DNA of 64,000 nt, taken from the NCBI GenBank assembly GCA_021604005.1, contig BQIV01000011.1:1-64000 (forward strand). Direction: 5' to 3'. The DNA comes from Nitrospirales bacterium. GTDB lineage: Bacteria > Nitrospirota > Nitrospiria > Nitrospirales > UBA8639. Below, one piece after another: positions 15,003 to 64,000 of the stretch (positions are counted from its first letter, which is position 1; each line of letters opens with the position of its first letter). The translations under genes and the position numbers were made by a program. The notes beneath the pieces are model-generated. The model worked only from the letters and a program-made list of their open reading frames with translations. It was not told where the DNA came from and searched no databases.

Positions 15003-16202
15003 ATGCAGCCACTTCCAGCACTCACTCCACCACATCGTCTTCTTCTTGGGCCAGGACCTAGCATGGTCCACCCACGCGTCTTGCAAGCCATGGGCACCCC
15101 TTTGGTTGGCCACCTAGACCCTGTATTTCTCTCCATTATGGATGACATTCAAGCAGCGTTACGATGGCTTTTTCGTACGCGCAACGCGCTCACTATTCCA
15201 ATTTCCGGAACAGGTTCGGCCGCCATGGAGACGGCAATCGTCAATCTCATTGAGCCTGGAGATTCCGTCATGGTCGGAATCAATGGAGTATTTGGAACCC
15301 GATTGGCCTCGATGGTTGAACGATGTGGCGGACACGCGATTCGACTCGAAGTGCCGTGGGGACAACCTCTCAATCCCGAACATATTGAACACCATTTACG
15401 CACAACAGGTCCCATTAAAGCGGTCGCGATTGTGCATGCCGAAACCTCAACCGGCACACATCAACCTCTCGAACACATTGGCCAATTATGTCGGCAACAT
15501 AAGGCATTGTACATTGTCGACACCGTCACATCGCTAGGAGGAATGGACGTCAATGTCGATGCCTGGCACATTGATGCCTGTTATAGCGCTGCGCAAAAAT
15601 GCTTGAGTTGTCCGCCGGGAATCTCACCCATCACTTTCAGCGACACAGCCGTCGACATCATTCGTCATCGAACGTCTCCTTCCACAAGCTGGTATTTGGA
15701 CTGTTCGTTGATCGCCGATTACTGGAGTGAGTCCAAACGTACGTACCATCACACTGCCCCCATCTCCATGGCCTATGCCCTGCGGGAATCTCTCCGCTTG
15801 ATTCAGGAGGAAGGTCTCGACGTCCGCATCGCTCGCCATCAACGAAACAGTCGGGCACTCATGGCCGGTCTCCAAACACTCGGATTTGAACCATTCCCCA
15901 CTGCCGACTATCAGCTCACCACATTACTCTGCGTGAAACTTCCTTCCTTCATTGATGATCTCAAAATACGAAAAGCCCTACTGCAGGATTTCCACATTGA
16001 GATTGGCGGCGGACTCGGGCCATTGGCGGGAAAAGTCTGGCGCATAGGATTGATGGGAGAGTCTTCCCGCGAAGAACATATCCTGGCATTGCTCTCTGCT
16101 CTTGAACAACTGCTTGCCCGCATCTTTCACCACCGCTCCATAGGTACAGCCGTCGCAGCAGCCATGGCCACATGGAGTCAGTCCAAGAATTCATACGCTT
16201 GA
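15003..16202 (+). CDS. Alanine-glyoxylate/serine-pyruvate aminotransferase (class V)
   Basis: A 399-residue PLP-dependent class V aminotransferase. LLLGPGPSMVHPRVL at the N terminus and SGTGSAAME (68-76) are typical of the AGXT/SPT group; Asp173 (IVDTVTS) contacts the pyridine nitrogen, and Lys199 in SAAQKC is the Schiff-base lysine. It probably interconverts glyoxylate and glycine with serine or alanine as donor, a photorespiratory-type or one-carbon step. It is divergent from the CPBP gene; the start has only a weak ribosome site. Confidence 0.87.
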   Translation: MQPLPALTPPHRLLLGPGPSMVHPRVLQAMGTPLVGHLDPVFLSIMDDIQAALRWLFRTRNALTIPISGTGSAAMETAIVNLIEPGDSVMVGINGVFGTRLASMVERCGGHAIRLEVPWGQPLNPEHIEHHLRTTGPIKAVAIVHAETSTGTHQPLEHIGQLCRQHKALYIVDTVTSLGGMDVNVDAWHIDACYSAAQKCLSCPPGISPITFSDTAVDIIRHRTSPSTSWYLDCSLIADYWSESKRTYHHTAPISMAYALRESLRLIQEEGLDVRIARHQRNSRALMAGLQTLGFEPFPTADYQLTTLLCVKLPSFIDDLKIRKALLQDFHIEIGGGLGPLAGKVWRIGLMGESSREEHILALLSALEQLLARIFHHRSIGTAVAAAMATWSQSKNSYA

Positions 16203-43992: not shown

Positions 43993-44028
43993 AGGCTTAC
44001 TATTCTCGCATTTGCAATTGTGGAATTC

Positions 44029-45300
44029 CTATCCTGACCATCGAGCACTCCAAGCTTAGAGTATGAATTTATTCTATAATGAATATTGCCAACTTCTTGC
44101 CACAGATACATGCTGTTTCCACCAGGTGAGGATGGGCTCAAGCAAAAAAAACCGGCGTTGATAAGTCGTCGTTCATCAACCAAGTCACTTGCGCGCCCAC
44201 GCAACGGGCCAAAGCCATTGATCGACAGGCACACTAAAGCCTATCTTATGTCTTTCCATGAGTTTTTTGGTAATATATTTTGCCAAAATTTCGCGCATTT
44301 TTTAGATCGCCTCTGACGAAGCTTCAGCAAGAGAGAGACCTTCTATTTTCAAGCACACGACAATCGAGCAACGGCACCAGGGCTTCTAGGCTAACATTCA
44401 TGTTTGCTCTGTCAACTTTCGTCAAGATATCATTCGGCAAATAGTCAAGCATGCCTGTAATTGCATTGACTTCACAAAAGCATGACTTTCTTGGTTCGCT
44501 ATTCTCTTCCGAAACCTGCTGTTCCTGGAACTATTCTTGTTTCATTTGATCAGGCTGACAATAAAATCTGGCAGGCATGGCATTCATTCTGACGGGCAAT
44601 CACATCAACTAATTTGTGGAGCTGATCACCTAATCGAGAAGGAACTGGAATTCTCAATATCCCTAACGACAGGATATCTCAAGTTAAAGTAATGCGGCAT
44701 GTAATTCTACTGGAACATATGCGACGGATAAAAAACGACCACAACTCAACACTAAGATACTTTGCGACTTTTTTTGCAGTACATCTTGACTGTAACCTCT
44801 TCATAAAACCCAGCACCAAATGCTCATAACGGTTGTGAACTTTGGTCCTACTTCAAGGTAACCACGTCATCCACCCCTCTCGAGAGCAACGAACCAAGTA
44901 AAACATACAGAATCATACGTCATTGAACGGCCGATAGAAGCCGTGCATCCAGTTCTTCAACAAAGTATTCAGAATCCTCATCACGACAGTTGACCAGATC
45001 CTGTCTTGCGATTGCAGTCAAACCCCAGTACCCCATGTACTGCTGAAATCCAAATAACACCCGACTCTTTCGGCACCTCCAATAAAAAGGCTTGCAGCCC
45101 AAACGGTCTCGAACTAAATTTAAACGTACGTTCTTGGCTGTCCCACGCACTGAAGGCAAACGTCCCAATACAACTACAACGACGAATCGTGTGAGTAATG
45201 CCCAAGCTTCACATCTATTCAAAAGTACCTCGTGTCAGGACAGTTTTCCTAAGTTTTTCAGGTTATTTAGACAGTAATATGATTCTCGTTACTTCATCCA
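44029..45300 (-). pseudogene. Decayed asparagine synthetase (asnB) pseudogene
   Basis: Segments of an AsnB homologue can be read on the minus strand across three frames. From 5' to 3': a glutaminase-domain piece (GTFAFSAWD, then shifted to VRDRLGCKPFYW) near 45050-45220; a damaged PP-loop SRGVDD near 44870; LGDQLHKLVDVIARQ near 44620; [15 protein letters not shown] and LEALVPLLD near 44360-44440; LMERHKIGFSVPVDQWL, then PLRGRASDLVDERR and SWQYSL near 44070-44290; then a final frame ending TAG at 44029-44031. Multiple frameshifts, stops and an internal deletion show it is dead. Both ends are approximate, especially the 5' end. Confidence 0.88.
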
Positions 45301-45419
45301 CTAGGGCTTTAGCATTCACTCCAGGATCAGAAAATGCCTACCCCATGTCCAGCATCGATTAGTATAGAGCTAAAATATCCATAGTCAAATAGGGACTCTC
45401 ATCTAACGCGCATCTTGAT

Positions 45420-46256
45420 TTACTGGCTAACTCGTCGAAAGATAAACTCATTACATCCATGACGTCGTCCACAGGTTTTTAGCTTCACCAGTCGAAAACC
45501 ACGGCACGTAAACACTTGGACGACCTCTTCCGGCTTGGCCACCTCAAATGGGTAACCGCCTAACCAGTCCACCATATCCCGCCATAAGTCCATCCCGCGT
45601 GGCAATTTCCCTCGACCTTGGATCAATCGAACTAAACGGCGAAGGATATATAGGTAAGGTGCATGTATAAGAATCATTACTACTTGCCCCCACCAGTTTG
45701 CGTTATATACCTTTTTGACTTGCAGCCAATAACGTGAGATAAACCCTTGGTCATTATAAATAGCAATAAACACATATCCCTTATTTCCTACCACAGTTGT
45801 AATATTCTCTAGTGCCTTCCACATGGAGCCCGTATGGTGAAGCACACCCCAGCTATATATAATGTCATAGGTATCGAGGGACATAAGATATTTCTGATCC
45901 AGAACATCACCTTGCTGTATTTTCCACTCAGAATCATGAGGAAAGAATTGGTCTCGAATAGACTTGGTACAGGCCACCGCTTCAGCATCAAAATCAAACG
46001 AGCAAACCGACGCACCTAACATTCGAGCGGCTAATGAAAACAGACCACTCCCTGACCCTATGTCCAGAAATCGCTTGCCACGAAAATCCTGAATTTCTAG
46101 CATGGCGTGTAGTGATTTTTGCGCTTCGACAATTCTACTTTCATCCAGGAGTTCAATAAATCGCTTCCAGTTTTTTCCGAATTGAAAGCGAACAGAATCT
46201 CGACTTATTGGTCTGCTTGGAGAAGTCATGGTCATTCTACTTAGCTTATTCGACAC
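45420..46256 (-). CDS. SAM-dependent class I methyltransferase
   Basis: A 278-residue methyltransferase. Motif I LDIGSGSG (64-71), an acidic SFDFDAEAV after the second strand and SWGVLHHTG as the motif IV region define the class I fold (Methyltransf_11/23-like). The substrate is unknown; in this setting a sugar hydroxyl or lipid-linked intermediate is plausible. The second Met (residue 8) is an alternative start. It is located between the asnB pseudogene and a GT4 gene. Confidence 0.82.
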   Translation of the reverse strand: MSNKLSRMTMTSPSRPISRDSVRFQFGKNWKRFIELLDESRIVEAQKSLHAMLEIQDFRGKRFLDIGSGSGLFSLAARMLGASVCSFDFDAEAVACTKSIRDQFFPHDSEWKIQQGDVLDQKYLMSLDTYDIIYSWGVLHHTGSMWKALENITTVVGNKGYVFIAIYNDQGFISRYWLQVKKVYNANWWGQVVMILIHAPYLYILRRLVRLIQGRGKLPRGMDLWRDMVDWLGGYPFEVAKPEEVVQVFTCRGFRLVKLKTCGRRHGCNEFIFRRVSQ

Positions 46257-57920: not shown

Positions 57921-59333
57921 TCAGCGAGAACGCTGTCGTGCGAGAACGATATCGTCCTTCATCTTTTCAACAATCCGATTGGACACGTGTCCATCAAAGT
58001 AGCCAAGAAAATCCTTGACCATTTCATTGGAAATGGATGGAAGTGTTGGTTCGGTTGCATTCAACTGCGCTATAATTGCATATTTCATTTCCTCTGGAGA
58101 ATGGGCAACGCGAAAGGTCTCAAAGTACTTTTTAAAATACACATGGTCCCTGAAATATTTTCCAGCTGCCTCTGCAAAAAGCGGAATAATTACCGGTCGG
58201 CGAGCAAGCTTGGCCTCGAGAAGAGTCGTGGAATTGATGCCAATGACGACTGCCGAGTTCTTGATCAGTTCCTGTGCTGTAACATCAAGCGAGATCGTGA
58301 GGTTTGGGAGTGACTCAGGGTCAATCTTGGTTTTCCTTTGGATAGAATCCTTAATTCTTTCGATCCAATGGCCTCCCCATTTGGGCTTGATATGAAATCT
58401 GATATCGGAATATTCACACGCGAGTTCAGCAATCGCAGCATGAACAAGAGCAAAATATTCCACAAAGCCTTCATGCGGGTCATCACTAAAAAACCCGTTC
58501 GATTGGGTAGGCTGGAGTAAGCCCACATAATGATGAAAGGAAAACAGCACGACCTGCCTGCCTGGGTTCTGGTATAAACCTCTCTGTATATCACTGAACA
58601 ACGAATCAAGTCTCAATGCTCCGACGGTTTCAATGCGCGTTGACTCGCAAACCCCAGCTTGTTCGATGAGAGATGCCTCATGGTTGTTATAAACAAAAAG
58701 TCGAGTACCTGTGAACTGAAAGTGACGAGCTTGGTAACGAACAATCGTACTTTGGTGAACCGGTTCATCTTTCATATTTTCTTTATGCAAACAAAAAAAC
58801 GGAATTCCTGCTTTGGGCGCCGCACTCTCCCATTCACGATCCTGCCCATAATAAAACGCACACGTAATAATGGCATCGATGTGATTTTTCCGAGCTAGAC
58901 AAGGAAGCAAACGTTGCAGAAATGCGTTTAAACCTTGACGAGCCTCCTGAATCCTGACATTCTCAGCACGTAGGTAGGCATCTGGATCAGAATTCGTAAT
59001 ATCTCCTATTCCAGATAAGAAAATCGCATTAACAAGATGCTGAACGTTCGATGGCAATGAGACCAGCTCAATATCGCAGTGACGGCTAAGTTCTTTTAGG
59101 TCAGGCATAAATCGCTCACAGTTCAACACTAATAGTTTGACCCGATCAGGAGTCACCGATGATCCTCCAAGGGGCTCAAGACGCCGTGACACATATTGCT
59201 CAATAATTGGAATAAACCATGTTAGACTTGAGATTTTCCTTCCAAGCGCCACAATATGACGACGCCAGGCTGATCCCACAGAGGGACGAACGACCCACTC
59301 AACCAGATTAGCGAAAACTCTCTCCAAAACCAT
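57921..59333 (-). CDS. Surface-carbohydrate GT-B-like protein
   Basis: A 470-residue protein with a GT-B-like C-terminal half: FHIKPKWGGHW, then GINSTTLLEAKLARRPVIIP, the phosphate-loop pattern of the CDP-glycerol/polysialyl-transferase-like fold used in capsule and teichoic-type synthesis. The N-terminal half (about 60-200) holds DRVKLLVLNCERF and IDAIITCAFYYGQ. The start overlaps the upstream stop by 1 nt (TAATG), indicating coupling. Donor and acceptor are unknown. Confidence 0.68.
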   Translation of the reverse strand: MVLERVFANLVEWVVRPSVGSAWRRHIVALGRKISSLTWFIPIIEQYVSRRLEPLGGSSVTPDRVKLLVLNCERFMPDLKELSRHCDIELVSLPSNVQHLVNAIFLSGIGDITNSDPDAYLRAENVRIQEARQGLNAFLQRLLPCLARKNHIDAIITCAFYYGQDREWESAAPKAGIPFFCLHKENMKDEPVHQSTIVRYQARHFQFTGTRLFVYNNHEASLIEQAGVCESTRIETVGALRLDSLFSDIQRGLYQNPGRQVVLFSFHHYVGLLQPTQSNGFFSDDPHEGFVEYFALVHAAIAELACEYSDIRFHIKPKWGGHWIERIKDSIQRKTKIDPESLPNLTISLDVTAQELIKNSAVVIGINSTTLLEAKLARRPVIIPLFAEAAGKYFRDHVYFKKYFETFRVAHSPEEMKYAIIAQLNATEPTLPSISNEMVKDFLGYFDGHVSNRIVEKMKDDIVLARQRSR

Positions 59334-60745
59334 TAGACACTCTGACCTTTCACCAACTTCCTAGGTTCCTGCCTCAGATGATCCGAAATGATTTTTACGA
59401 TCTCCGTGCATGGGGAAAAATTCTCACAACAGAAGTTTTCGCAAGCAAACTGTTGTCTACGAGCTGACTCTGCCAATCCTTCTGGAGTTGTTAACCGGTC
59501 AAGTGTTTCGTTGAGCTCTGAAACATCCCTCACGTGAAAAGAGCCACCGATATTTTCATACATGTCATCGTCATCGTCTGTCGTATAGAAATTATAAGAA
59601 ATAATTGGCAAACGACATAGCATAGCAATGAATCCCACTGTACCCTGCTTCTGTAAAAGAAAGTCAGAAGCCAGTACAAGAAGTGTATTGTGATCGTCTC
59701 CAAAGAACTCAACTACGAATCTCACGTCATTATCATAACCAGTAAGAGCGTTTTTAAAACGTTTGATTGCAGTTTGAACAGTTTTTGGATGAAATTTCAG
59801 CAAGAATTGACTATCCTGATTTTTTTTACGGATGCTATCGATTACCGTTACAACCTCATTCAACTGAATCTCGGAAAAATCAGAAGGGGATAAAAAGAAC
59901 GAGAACAGAGGACGATTAACATCTAACCCAAGTTCTTTGCGTATTTCCACCCGTTGTTGGGCAGTAAAACTAGCCTTTCGTTCCAGAACGTGCTCATAAC
60001 TCGGACTTCCTATAGAAAAAATCTTTGGCTCTATAAGACCGCATGCTTGATAGTTTTCTCGTATACGGCTTCCCGTCACCGTGAGATATTGCACTTTCCC
60101 AAACCCATGAATAGTATTTCTCGCCCACCATCCCATCACCCGGTCAAGAATTAAATGAGACGGGACAAATTTAAGGATACATCCACGAGCTCGAGGCAAG
60201 AAACGTCTTCCCAGGAGTCGATCTAAAAACAAACAGGCCTGGAAAACTGGCCTTTGCAATACATGCTCTGAAAGAGATTCATGATCAAGGTACCCTTTAA
60301 GGTTAGAAAGATTTGTAACTGTATGTACAGTGAGCGACGGTATTCGTACTGCAATGACATACCAATACGGCTTATTGTCCCAAGGCAGAATGGCAAAGTG
60401 ATAGTGGCGCTTAAGAGATTCAGCCCATATCCACCCACAACACCAGAGTAATAATCGAAATGGTAACTGCCCAGAGCGATTTAGACACACACGAAGCCAT
60501 CTCGGGCCACGGACGATTCGACACATCGAGTCATCAGTACACAGATCGCTATATTGCTTCTCAATTTTTGGGTCAATGGTCAGAATAGTGACTTTAAACC
60601 CATGCGCAATAAGTTTTGGCACTAGAAATTTAAAATAATTGAATAAATAGTAATCATAGAGCAACGGAATCAAAATCTTTCGATGTTCTTGAAGTTCCTT
60701 ACATTTTTTTTTCGCTTCATTCATGCCTTGAGGCTCACTCGACAA
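59333..60745 (-). CDS. Second surface-carbohydrate GT-B-like protein
   Basis: A 470-residue protein, equal in length to its downstream neighbour. The N-terminal YYLFNYFKFLVPKLIAHGF and C-terminal FLLKFHPKT, LLQKQGTVGFIAMLCRLPII mark a GT-B fold of the CDP-glycerol or UDP-GlcNAc-epimerase-like group. The phosphate-loop Ser/Thr after QKQG fits donor binding. The two genes are a tandem pair that may have arisen by duplication, though sequence similarity is low by eye. Confidence 0.65.
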   Translation of the reverse strand: MSSEPQGMNEAKKKCKELQEHRKILIPLLYDYYLFNYFKFLVPKLIAHGFKVTILTIDPKIEKQYSDLCTDDSMCRIVRGPRWLRVCLNRSGQLPFRLLLWCCGWIWAESLKRHYHFAILPWDNKPYWYVIAVRIPSLTVHTVTNLSNLKGYLDHESLSEHVLQRPVFQACLFLDRLLGRRFLPRARGCILKFVPSHLILDRVMGWWARNTIHGFGKVQYLTVTGSRIRENYQACGLIEPKIFSIGSPSYEHVLERKASFTAQQRVEIRKELGLDVNRPLFSFFLSPSDFSEIQLNEVVTVIDSIRKKNQDSQFLLKFHPKTVQTAIKRFKNALTGYDNDVRFVVEFFGDDHNTLLVLASDFLLQKQGTVGFIAMLCRLPIISYNFYTTDDDDDMYENIGGSFHVRDVSELNETLDRLTTPEGLAESARRQQFACENFCCENFSPCTEIVKIISDHLRQEPRKLVKGQSV

Positions 60746-60894: not shown

Positions 60895-61734
60895 CTAGTG
60901 ATATTTCACCATTCTAGCCTGACAAATAGCAGGGTAGATTTCACAGTACGTTGTGAAAACTCCTCGTACGCGTACGGGTTCTGAAAGAGGAAAGCGTGAC
61001 TCGTTGATAACAACTACCGGGCCGCGTTCATCTGAATAAGACGCTAAGGCCATGTATTTTTTTAGATTCTCTGCTCGATCATTTCCAACAGTCTGAAGAT
61101 CCCAACCACACCCATCACGCTCATGACACGGCACATATGCATCGATATCGAGCTTGAGCATTTCTTCTATGGATATCCTTCTCTTATCGTGTACCGTGGT
61201 GAAATACACATTGTAGTCAGGGTCTGTGACTTCCCAGGACTTAGTATCTGAATTGAAAACCTCTAACAAGGTGTGTGACGGAAACTCATTAAGGTGAGTC
61301 CAAATGCTTACCACACGTGATGGTACGGACAAATACGTTAATATCTTTTGAAAGAGCGTTGTTCTAGACGAACATTCGAGATGCGGTAGAGGCCCACTTC
61401 CTGAATCATGAGCAAGGAGCATCTCTATCACTCTGACGTGGTCAGAATAATAAGAACGGAACTCGTCATCGATCTTATTGATACTATTTCGATTAATAAA
61501 CTGCCGTATCTCATCCAGTAGTTCTGAGTGTTGCACACGAGGCTCGAAAGAGATACGAGAGAGTAGCCTTTTGACAACGGCTAGTTCCTCAAAGTTTTGA
61601 GAGTCTGAAACAGAGACTTGATAGATTGGTTGATGTGGGTAGAAATGTGATCGTGAAAAATAGAATAGAATAATCCCACACACAAACAGTAAGATTAAAA
61701 ACAATGATCGCCTAATCCCATTATAAGAGTGCAT
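60895..61734 (-). CDS. Membrane-anchored transglutaminase-like protein
   Basis: A 279-residue protein: TM anchor about 9-27, then a transglutaminase-like domain with a complete catalytic set, Cys121 in LECSSRTTLF, His154 in SHTLLEVF and Asp171 in VTDPDYN. Members are proteases, amidases or peptide-glycan ligases. The start at 61734 (AAGGT 6 nt upstream) is chosen over an upstream ATG at 61863, whose extra 43 residues lie over the end of a pseudogene. It faces the periplasm or exterior, so it might act on amide-decorated glycan. Confidence 0.72.
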   Translation of the reverse strand: MHSYNGIRRSLFLILLFVCGIILFYFSRSHFYPHQPIYQVSVSDSQNFEELAVVKRLLSRISFEPRVQHSELLDEIRQFINRNSINKIDDEFRSYYSDHVRVIEMLLAHDSGSGPLPHLECSSRTTLFQKILTYLSVPSRVVSIWTHLNEFPSHTLLEVFNSDTKSWEVTDPDYNVYFTTVHDKRRISIEEMLKLDIDAYVPCHERDGCGWDLQTVGNDRAENLKKYMALASYSDERGPVVVINESRFPLSEPVRVRGVFTTYCEIYPAICQARMVKYH

Positions 61735-61813: not shown

Positions 61814-62647
61814 TCATTTAAACAAACTAACCTGAATGGCCTCATCGAACGACGCAATATCAAGCCAATAACCCGTTGAGTAAATCACTCTGACACGCTC
61901 ACCTGCTTTGATAAGCTCATTGAGTAGCAAAGGCATCTTGATATCTTTGTTCCCTAATTCAACGAGCAATCGACTTAAATCTCTTTAAACACAGGCATTC
62001 TTTCACAGAAATTTTCCATGAAGCTCATCCACTCCCCGTGAGTTTCAGCATTTGGTAAATTCTCTTCTATATGATTGAGGAATACTTTCGATGCAAAACT
62101 CCGCCGGGAACTGCTCATGGTACAGTTGACAGAATCCGCTTGACGATCACGGTTGACAATTTCTTTCCAATTGATGTCCACCGCAATCACATAATCGTCG
62201 GACATGTTAAGGAGCGCCTGAGGAATATACTTGTGAAATAATACATCCTCATAAGAAACTACCGTTGTTTTGTTTACATCGATGGGTTCCAACCCTTTCT
62301 GTAATGAAAAAAGTTCGCCACGAGATTCGAACTCATCATCCGGCCGAGGATCTTTACCAATCAGAGCTTACCGCAAAACACATCAGCATCAACTAACGGT
62401 TGCGTCTTTCCCTTAATGAAACTGTTTGTTGTCGATTATATTTCTTTTCGATGCAAAGAGATGCAACACGACGTTGTTCAAACTTGCGAACAAAACGTCT
62501 CATGTTGTTGAAAGTGCCATACCTCATATCTCCATGAAGGATTATCGGACCTGAGTGGCATCTGACATAAATTTCAAAACGTCTAAGACTTGACTCCATA
62601 AGGCCTAATTGCTATCACGCACTCCTAGGGCCGCAGAAATCGACAAT
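61814..62647 (-). pseudogene. Decayed phosphoenolpyruvate mutase/nucleotidyltransferase fusion
   Basis: Pieces of a PEP mutase with a C-terminal nucleotidyltransferase read on the minus strand across frames. In order: SAALGVRDSN, an in-frame stop, then QVLDVLKFMSDATQV near 62550-62640; shift to HGDMRYGTFNNMRRFVRK and VASLCIEKK near 62450-62540; shift to TNSFIKGKTQPLVDADVFCGK near 62370-62430; then GKDPRPDDEFESRG, TTVVSYEDVLFHKYI and YVIAVDINWKE (62100-62350); then MPLLLNELIKAGERVRVIYS and YWLDIASFDEA, ending TGA at 61814-61816. The middle of the TIM barrel is deleted. An intact enzyme would start phosphonate synthesis. Confidence 0.87.
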
Positions 62648-62771: not shown

Positions 62772-64000
62772 TCAACAAGACCGAGTTCCCATTACTTTCT
62801 GAACGAACGCCATATCCTTTTTCATGAACGAAGCATCAATAGCTTCACTCAATTTGTCAAATCTGATCTGTGCACGATTCTCACTATCGTACCACCCACG
62901 AATCACAGCACAACGCCGCTCAAATAAGAGTTGATCTTCATCAGGGAGTCTATTAAACCCAAAGTCGATAAACACAATTGGCATGTCTGTCTGAAGAGCA
63001 AATCCAAATGTCGTCGTGAGTGGCCAATCGAATACCAACACATCGGCACAATCATATACGTTTTCAAACAATCCGGAGAGCTCTTCCACACCAAACTGGG
63101 TACCAAAGACTTCAGGTGGATTCGTCGGGCACTGCGGGTGCGGTTTCTGGTAGATAAGAATCCCTTGCTCTTTGAGTTTACAGAACAGCCGAGCCTGCCA
63201 ATCTACCGCAACGATTGATGGCATTAGAGGAGCGGGCCCTACGATGTCGGTTGGGAAATACGGCGTGACATACAGGATTCTTTTTGACTGAATTTTGGTC
63301 GATCGCAGGGCAGGTTTCTGCATCCGTTTCCCAGCGAACTCTTTTAACGAATCTGTGAGATAGTGCAATTGAGGCATATGCCCAGTAATGAGATACTTTC
63401 GGCAATTTTGTTCATACAAGTCTGCCTGTGCTTTTGAAAAGGTAACAAATACATCACAACTCTGAAACTCCGTAAATGGAACCGGGGAGATTTCTGAATA
63501 ACTCGCACCCAATACGTGATCATGGCTCACAACGGTACCGCCCTTGCATCGAACGGCATGGGCCAATAGACGGGACCAAATTATCCCAGACGATCCGGCC
63601 CACAAGGTCTTTGGAAGTCGATCTGAATTTCTTCTAAGCCTTTCTCGATAGAAATCGATCCACGCGTAAGCTTCACTTAACCAATTAACCAAATAAGACA
63701 CTAAGTATGGCGGCAGTTTACCGCCTCGCTCAGCAAACCCCATGTTCAATTCTTCTAACAACTGCAGAGCCAATTCCAGTGCGACATTCTTGTTGAATAG
63801 AGTTACACATTCATGCGTGGCAGGAGGGTAAAACCATTCATTTAACGGACACAACACTACACGCGCAGACTCCTGCTCCACATGCGCAGTGGTGAGCGGA
63901 CAATTGGTCACACAAACAATGTCGTGGTCAAAATCAATAAACTCTATAGATCTTCTCGTAAACCCATCGCGCTCCTGGAAAGCGCGAAGGGGGCGTAACG
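62772..64000 (-). CDS. Surface polysaccharide transferase-like protein, 5' end off window
   Basis: At least 409 codons; the frame stays open through the right edge of the window, so the true start lies beyond 64000 and the GTG at 63911 is internal (upstream codons read RRSIEFIDFDHDIVCVTN). The C-terminal half has a GT-B-like layout: LYVTPYFPTD, IYQKPHPQCP, DVLVFDWPLTTTFGFALQTDMPIVFID, similar to transferases of the CDP-glycerol or capsule type. The downstream neighbour is the PEP-mutase pseudogene. Confidence 0.65.
   Translation of the reverse strand, partial: LRPLRAFQERDGFTRRSIEFIDFDHDIVCVTNCPLTTAHVEQESARVVLCPLNEWFYPPATHECVTLFNKNVALELALQLLEELNMGFAERGGKLPPYLVSYLVNWLSEAYAWIDFYRERLRRNSDRLPKTLWAGSSGIIWSRLLAHAVRCKGGTVVSHDHVLGASYSEISPVPFTEFQSCDVFVTFSKAQADLYEQNCRKYLITGHMPQLHYLTDSLKEFAGKRMQKPALRSTKIQSKRILYVTPYFPTDIVGPAPLMPSIVAVDWQARLFCKLKEQGILIYQKPHPQCPTNPPEVFGTQFGVEELSGLFENVYDCADVLVFDWPLTTTFGFALQTDMPIVFIDFGFNRLPDEDQLLFERRCAVIRGWYDSENRAQIRFDKLSEAIDASFMKKDMAFVQKVMGTRSC

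Follow-up and report, generated by a model that had tools for sequence, protein, structure and literature searches.

A decayed fused PEP mutase–nucleotidyltransferase gene in a surface-glycan locus of a Nitrospirales bacterium with an intact phosphonate route elsewhere in its genome

Phosphoenolpyruvate (PEP) mutase (PepM, also written Ppm) starts the synthesis of carbon–phosphorus bonds. The enzyme is commonly part of a larger protein: a direct fusion with a nucleotidyltransferase has been reported in ~60% of Ppm enzymes, PF12804 being the partner in 32.9% (PMC6697681). The usual use of such fusions is the phosphonate tailoring of surfaces, and CMP-2-aminoethylphosphonate (CMP-AEP) is made by PntC enzymes from two bacteria (PMC6697681). 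Among the papers searched, the few that name both Nitrospira and phosphonate synthesis concern, judging by titles and abstracts, other subjects.

The DNA of interest (hereafter the window) is a 64,000 nt stretch of a Nitrospirales genome: positions 1 to 64,000 of contig BQIV01000011.1, assembly GCA_021604005.1. The original prediction had proposed that three reading frames at 61814-62647 together spell the N terminus of a PEP mutase, joined across a deletion to the nucleotidyltransferase domain of fused PEP mutases. These coordinates proved accurate, and every quoted peptide is present on the minus strand (Table 1). The frameshift-tolerant protein-to-DNA alignment that had been proposed as a check recovers the same arrangement: the minus strand from 62646 to 61820 carries a decayed gene for a PepM of the TIGR02320 type fused to a MobA-like nucleotidyltransferase of the PF12804 type. 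The nearest intact relative, L106 (from the metagenome-assembled genome Gammaproteobacteria S141_57), is identical at 151 of 273 positions (55.3%; score 515), while lower scores were obtained with L107 (444), the Nitrospirales PepM L027 (393) and the intact copy in the same genome (292). Plus-strand controls scored 31-38 (L106: 32). Chance similarity to PepM is ruled out by a null set of 60 dinucleotide-preserving shuffles: scored against L107, these reached 36.4 +/- 4.2 (maximum 50), versus 444 for the real DNA.

Matches to families and to the intact copy agree with the alignment. Piece 62611-62396 is the only single piece to match a curated family, TIGR02320, at E=7e-8 (against PF13714 the value is 0.03), and the C-terminal part aligns at 48% to L106 and 44% to L107; the remnant thus once belonged both to the PEP mutase family (TIGR02320/PF13714) and to the MobA-like nucleotidyltransferases. 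In tblastn, the genome's own intact PepM matches three N-terminal pieces in three frames (E=1e-23) and two C-terminal pieces (E=3e-14). An isocitrate-lyase relative is ruled out as the identity of the gene: the best family is TIGR02320, and a second PF13714 protein of the genome, on C7, gives no real match. We are near certain that the remnant is a fused PepM pseudogene.

Table 1. Features of the remnant, its neighbours and the C4 gene set. Coordinates are window positions unless the C4 set is named.
Feature	Coordinates	Strand	Basis or remark
Pseudogene, fused PEP mutase–MobA-like nucleotidyltransferase	61820..62646	-	frameshift-aware alignment to L106
PEP mutase barrel, N-terminal half, core residues ~44-155	62350..62646	-	alignment
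Junction of ~217-codon deletion	62338..62350	-	alignment
Nucleotidyltransferase domain, C-terminal part, frameshift near 61979	61820..62338	-	48% identity to L106
Piece containing SAALGVRDSN	62685-62608	-	frame 2
Piece containing GTFNNMRRFVRK	62611-62396	-	frame 1
Piece containing TNSFIKGKTQPL	62435-62364	-	frame 0
Piece containing TTVVSYEDVLFHKYI	62367-61978	-	frame 2
Piece containing YWLDIASF	61984-61817	-	frame 1
Intact upstream ORF, 555 aa in full, runs past window	62772..63998	-	surface-polysaccharide type by context only
Intact downstream ORF, unknown family, 279 aa from ATG	60898..61734	-	transglutaminase-like by eye only
Two intact GT-B-like surface-carbohydrate genes, downstream	57921..60745	-	weak matches to BFO_1060 family and TIGR04396
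Phosphonopyruvate decarboxylase, split into two ORFs	C4 set		two TIGR03297 halves
AEP transaminase-like	C4 set		340 bits, just below 360.8 cut-off
Nucleotidyltransferase, PntC-like	C4 set
CDP-alcohol phosphatidyltransferase (CDP-OH_P_transf), N-terminal extension	C4 set
LPG_synthase_TM protein	C4 set

Alignment to the intact proteins reveals three kinds of damage. These are (i) small lesions, consisting of one stop (TAG, at 62607) and four frameshifts (near 62549, 62436, 62362 and 61979), (ii) a missing N terminus, with the first ~43 codons of intact fused PepM proteins absent, and (iii) one large deletion of ~217 codons (~650 bases), which removed the second barrel half, the linker and the nucleotide-binding start of the nucleotidyltransferase domain (its first ~70 residues). 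Key residues have also changed. The equivalent of Asp85 in the Mg site (numbered as in mussel PepM, via chain alignment) is a His. The EDKxxxxxNS motif, which tells PepM from its isocitrate-lyase relatives and is intact in relatives from the remnant's clade, reads EKK...TNS with a frameshift inside it; NS is kept, and D is lost. We take Asp85 and the EDK positions to be residues that PepM needs for catalysis. The remnant has neither the motif nor the complete, open-frame barrel of a working PepM, and it now makes nothing.

A PF13714 search of the genome revealed a second, intact fused PepM of 535 aa at C27:12309-13913. It exceeds the TIGR02320 cut-off (381.6 bits against 319.6), carries PF12804 at residues 297-418 and the motif EDKLFPKTNS, and lies between secA and nuoA, an interval that also holds a methyltransferase-like gene. 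Another contig carries an AEP-route gene set (C4:130973-136700; L052:8929-14703; Table 1). Taken together, the C27 and C4 genes amount to a route for AEP synthesis, followed by activation with CMP and probably by transfer to a lipid—these two later steps as suggested by family names—and the C4 set is likely a phosphonolipid pathway. Because the genome still has an intact PepM together with the other AEP-route genes, its phosphonate synthesis is not lost; the original prediction was right about the PepM–nucleotidyltransferase identity of the remnant, but the dead gene is no proof of a lost phosphonate ability. A set similar to that on C4 was seen, by eye, near the PepM of another genome (G052, locus L057). 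Window gene 15003-16202 was considered as an AEP transaminase and rejected, at 201 bits (E=3e-59) versus the 360.8 cut-off; it is more likely another class V aminotransferase, probably of other specificity.

The remnant sits in a glycan locus of low GC content (0.496 in window positions 1-38 kb, 0.431 in 38-64 kb). Its downstream neighbour has no homologue in the phylum sample (395 other genomes), and its upstream neighbour none in 60 order relatives. Searches with both flanking genes and with 7.3 kb of DNA found no syntenic relative; against ten relatives, the 7.3-kb stretch gave short matches only, inside their PepM genes where these could be placed. The same locus contains a second decayed gene (44028-45420), whose minus-strand pieces look asparagine synthase-like by eye. 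Further upstream, at C11:65055-76570 (L008:4055-15568), are nonulosonic-acid-type genes, assigned partly by profile and partly by eye: a cytidylyltransferase, NeuB-like and NeuC-like proteins, DegT aminotransferases, a PIG-L deacetylase and a formyltransferase.

The original prediction had proposed a search for phosphonate pathway genes beside homologues of this locus. Such genes do lie beside homologues of the gene; the locus itself has no homologue in the relatives searched. Downstream of its fused pepM, L107 has in turn a decarboxylase (436 bits to TIGR03297, over the cut-off), an AEP transaminase and then a nucleotidyltransferase; L106 has a decarboxylase (415 bits to TIGR03297, also over the cut-off) and an AEP transaminase, up to the contig end. 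Neighbourhoods are similar, as far as they were read and judged by eye rather than by profile, in L112, L117, L147, L149 and L150. A former role of the remnant in a phosphonate route is likely. Near the remnant, no decarboxylase, transaminase or PntC-like gene or gene remnant lies in window positions 38-64 kb, nor any decarboxylase or AEP transaminase in L008; the locus does not have the decarboxylase and AEP transaminase, or the LicD-type transferase, by which a phosphonate-decorated glycan locus would be recognized. LicD (PF04991) and Glyphos_transf (PF04464), two phosphonyl-transferase families among other conceivable types, are missing genome-wide.

Several accounts of the remnant can be weighed. 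The genome sequence is a 92-contig draft, as would suit a gene that is whole in living cells and merely looks broken through assembly or sequencing errors; however, such errors would have to account for five separate small lesions, a ~650-base deletion, a missing N terminus and substituted catalytic residues, and a sequencing slip is unlikely because the remnant lies between two intact ORFs. We consider this account extremely improbable. A duplicate of the genome's own intact PepM is ruled out: grouping the two costs 33.6 log units (AU p=0.006). In the maximum-likelihood tree the remnant falls within a 22-row set (support 97/90), together with Gammaproteobacteria (L106/L107), Gemmatimonadota and the order-wide Nitrospirales PepM. 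The order-wide subfamily and the Gammaproteobacteria match it better than the genome's intact copy does, and its PepM lineage differs from that of the intact copy. Its end branch is long, as expected of a decaying gene. Fused PepM occurs in 55 of the 60 Nitrospirales genomes searched and divides into two subfamilies, one with 52-93% and the other with 35-41% identity to the query; in some (L090, L092, L094, L097) it adjoins a decarboxylase gene or one that is aldo/keto reductase-like by eye. Might the remnant, then, be a relic of the ancestral Nitrospirales PepM, which the divergent C27 copy replaced in this genus? Its clade takes in the order-wide PepM, placement with Nitrospirales is not rejected (AU p=0.355 and 0.516, with 0.51 for the Gammaproteobacteria/Gemmatimonadota group), and the order-wide copy is missing from the searched members of the genus. 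Yet the Nitrospirales form a 100/100 clade that excludes the remnant, its highest identity (55%) is to gammaproteobacterial L106, and none of the searched Nitrospirales has a counterpart of the flanking locus. Such a relic is quite unlikely.

The best explanation overall, in which we have considerable confidence, is a dead bifunctional PepM–nucleotidyltransferase of a separate lineage, lying in a surface-glycan locus of a genome whose AEP route is alive elsewhere. The intact ancestor would have converted PEP to phosphonopyruvate with its N-terminal PEP mutase, while the fused MobA-like nucleotidyltransferase would, by analogy with PntC, have used CTP to activate AEP or another phosphonate, which would then be transferred to a surface molecule. 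Its substrate was presumably a phosphonate of this kind, and the product would have been destined for the glycan of the same locus. Since no phosphonate gene or remnant adjoins, the gene may instead have relied on partner genes elsewhere, or acted on a different substrate. Because its lineage differs from that of the intact copy, the gene probably arrived with the low-GC glycan locus—present in no relative searched—or survived from an older copy. Point mutations, frameshifts and a single large deletion then ruined it, and the present AEP route uses the intact C27 PepM and the C4 genes. Does the remnant also testify that the glycan of the locus once bore AEP or a similar phosphonate, a decoration that disappeared with the death of the gene? 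The remnant lies inside a polysaccharide locus, PepM adjoins export and polysaccharide genes in its close Gemmatimonadota relatives L112 and L147 and a CDP-glycerol-transferase-like gene (by eye) in L117/L150, and phosphonate tailoring of surfaces is what such fusions usually do (PMC6697681). On the other hand, the locus is without decarboxylase, transaminase and phosphonyl transferase, the genome has neither LicD nor Glyphos_transf, and phosphonate for the glycan could still come from the intact pathway elsewhere, so that nothing need have been lost. A glycan that once carried phosphonate is plausible, if somewhat short of an even chance, and its loss at gene death is a reading that we hold just as tentatively. 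It is doubtful, though conceivable, that the lineage once ran two phosphonate branches from two PepM lineages: a living phosphonolipid branch (C27 and C4), and a surface-glycan branch, in a cluster that also encodes nonulosonic-acid-type genes, which was switched off when its dedicated PepM was lost.

How does the dead gene compare with known systems? Like the published Ppm–PF12804 fusions (PMC6697681), it has the same two domains in the same order, a TIGR02320-type PepM and a MobA-like transferase; unlike them, it is a pseudogene: the barrel is incomplete, the EDKxxxxxNS motif is mutated and a nucleotide-binding motif is missing. The Mytilus PEP mutase (PDB 1m1b, 1pym) aligns end to end with the barrel of the genome's intact PepM (E=8e-127). 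The mussel enzyme has no fused transferase, whereas the remnant keeps only part of its barrel. The nearest intact relative, at 55% identity, belongs to the pepM–ppd–AEP transaminase cluster of L106: there pepM is intact and the decarboxylase and transaminase genes follow, while the remnant has neither beside it. Fused PepM–nucleotidyltransferase is a published and common architecture, and the remnant is a dead member of it rather than a new kind of system; it adds a further case in which the entry enzyme to phosphonates is found, and has decayed, within a variable surface-glycan locus. Of greater use are the living counterparts that came to light on the way, namely the fused PepM found across most of the order and the likely phosphonolipid gene set in the remnant's own genome.
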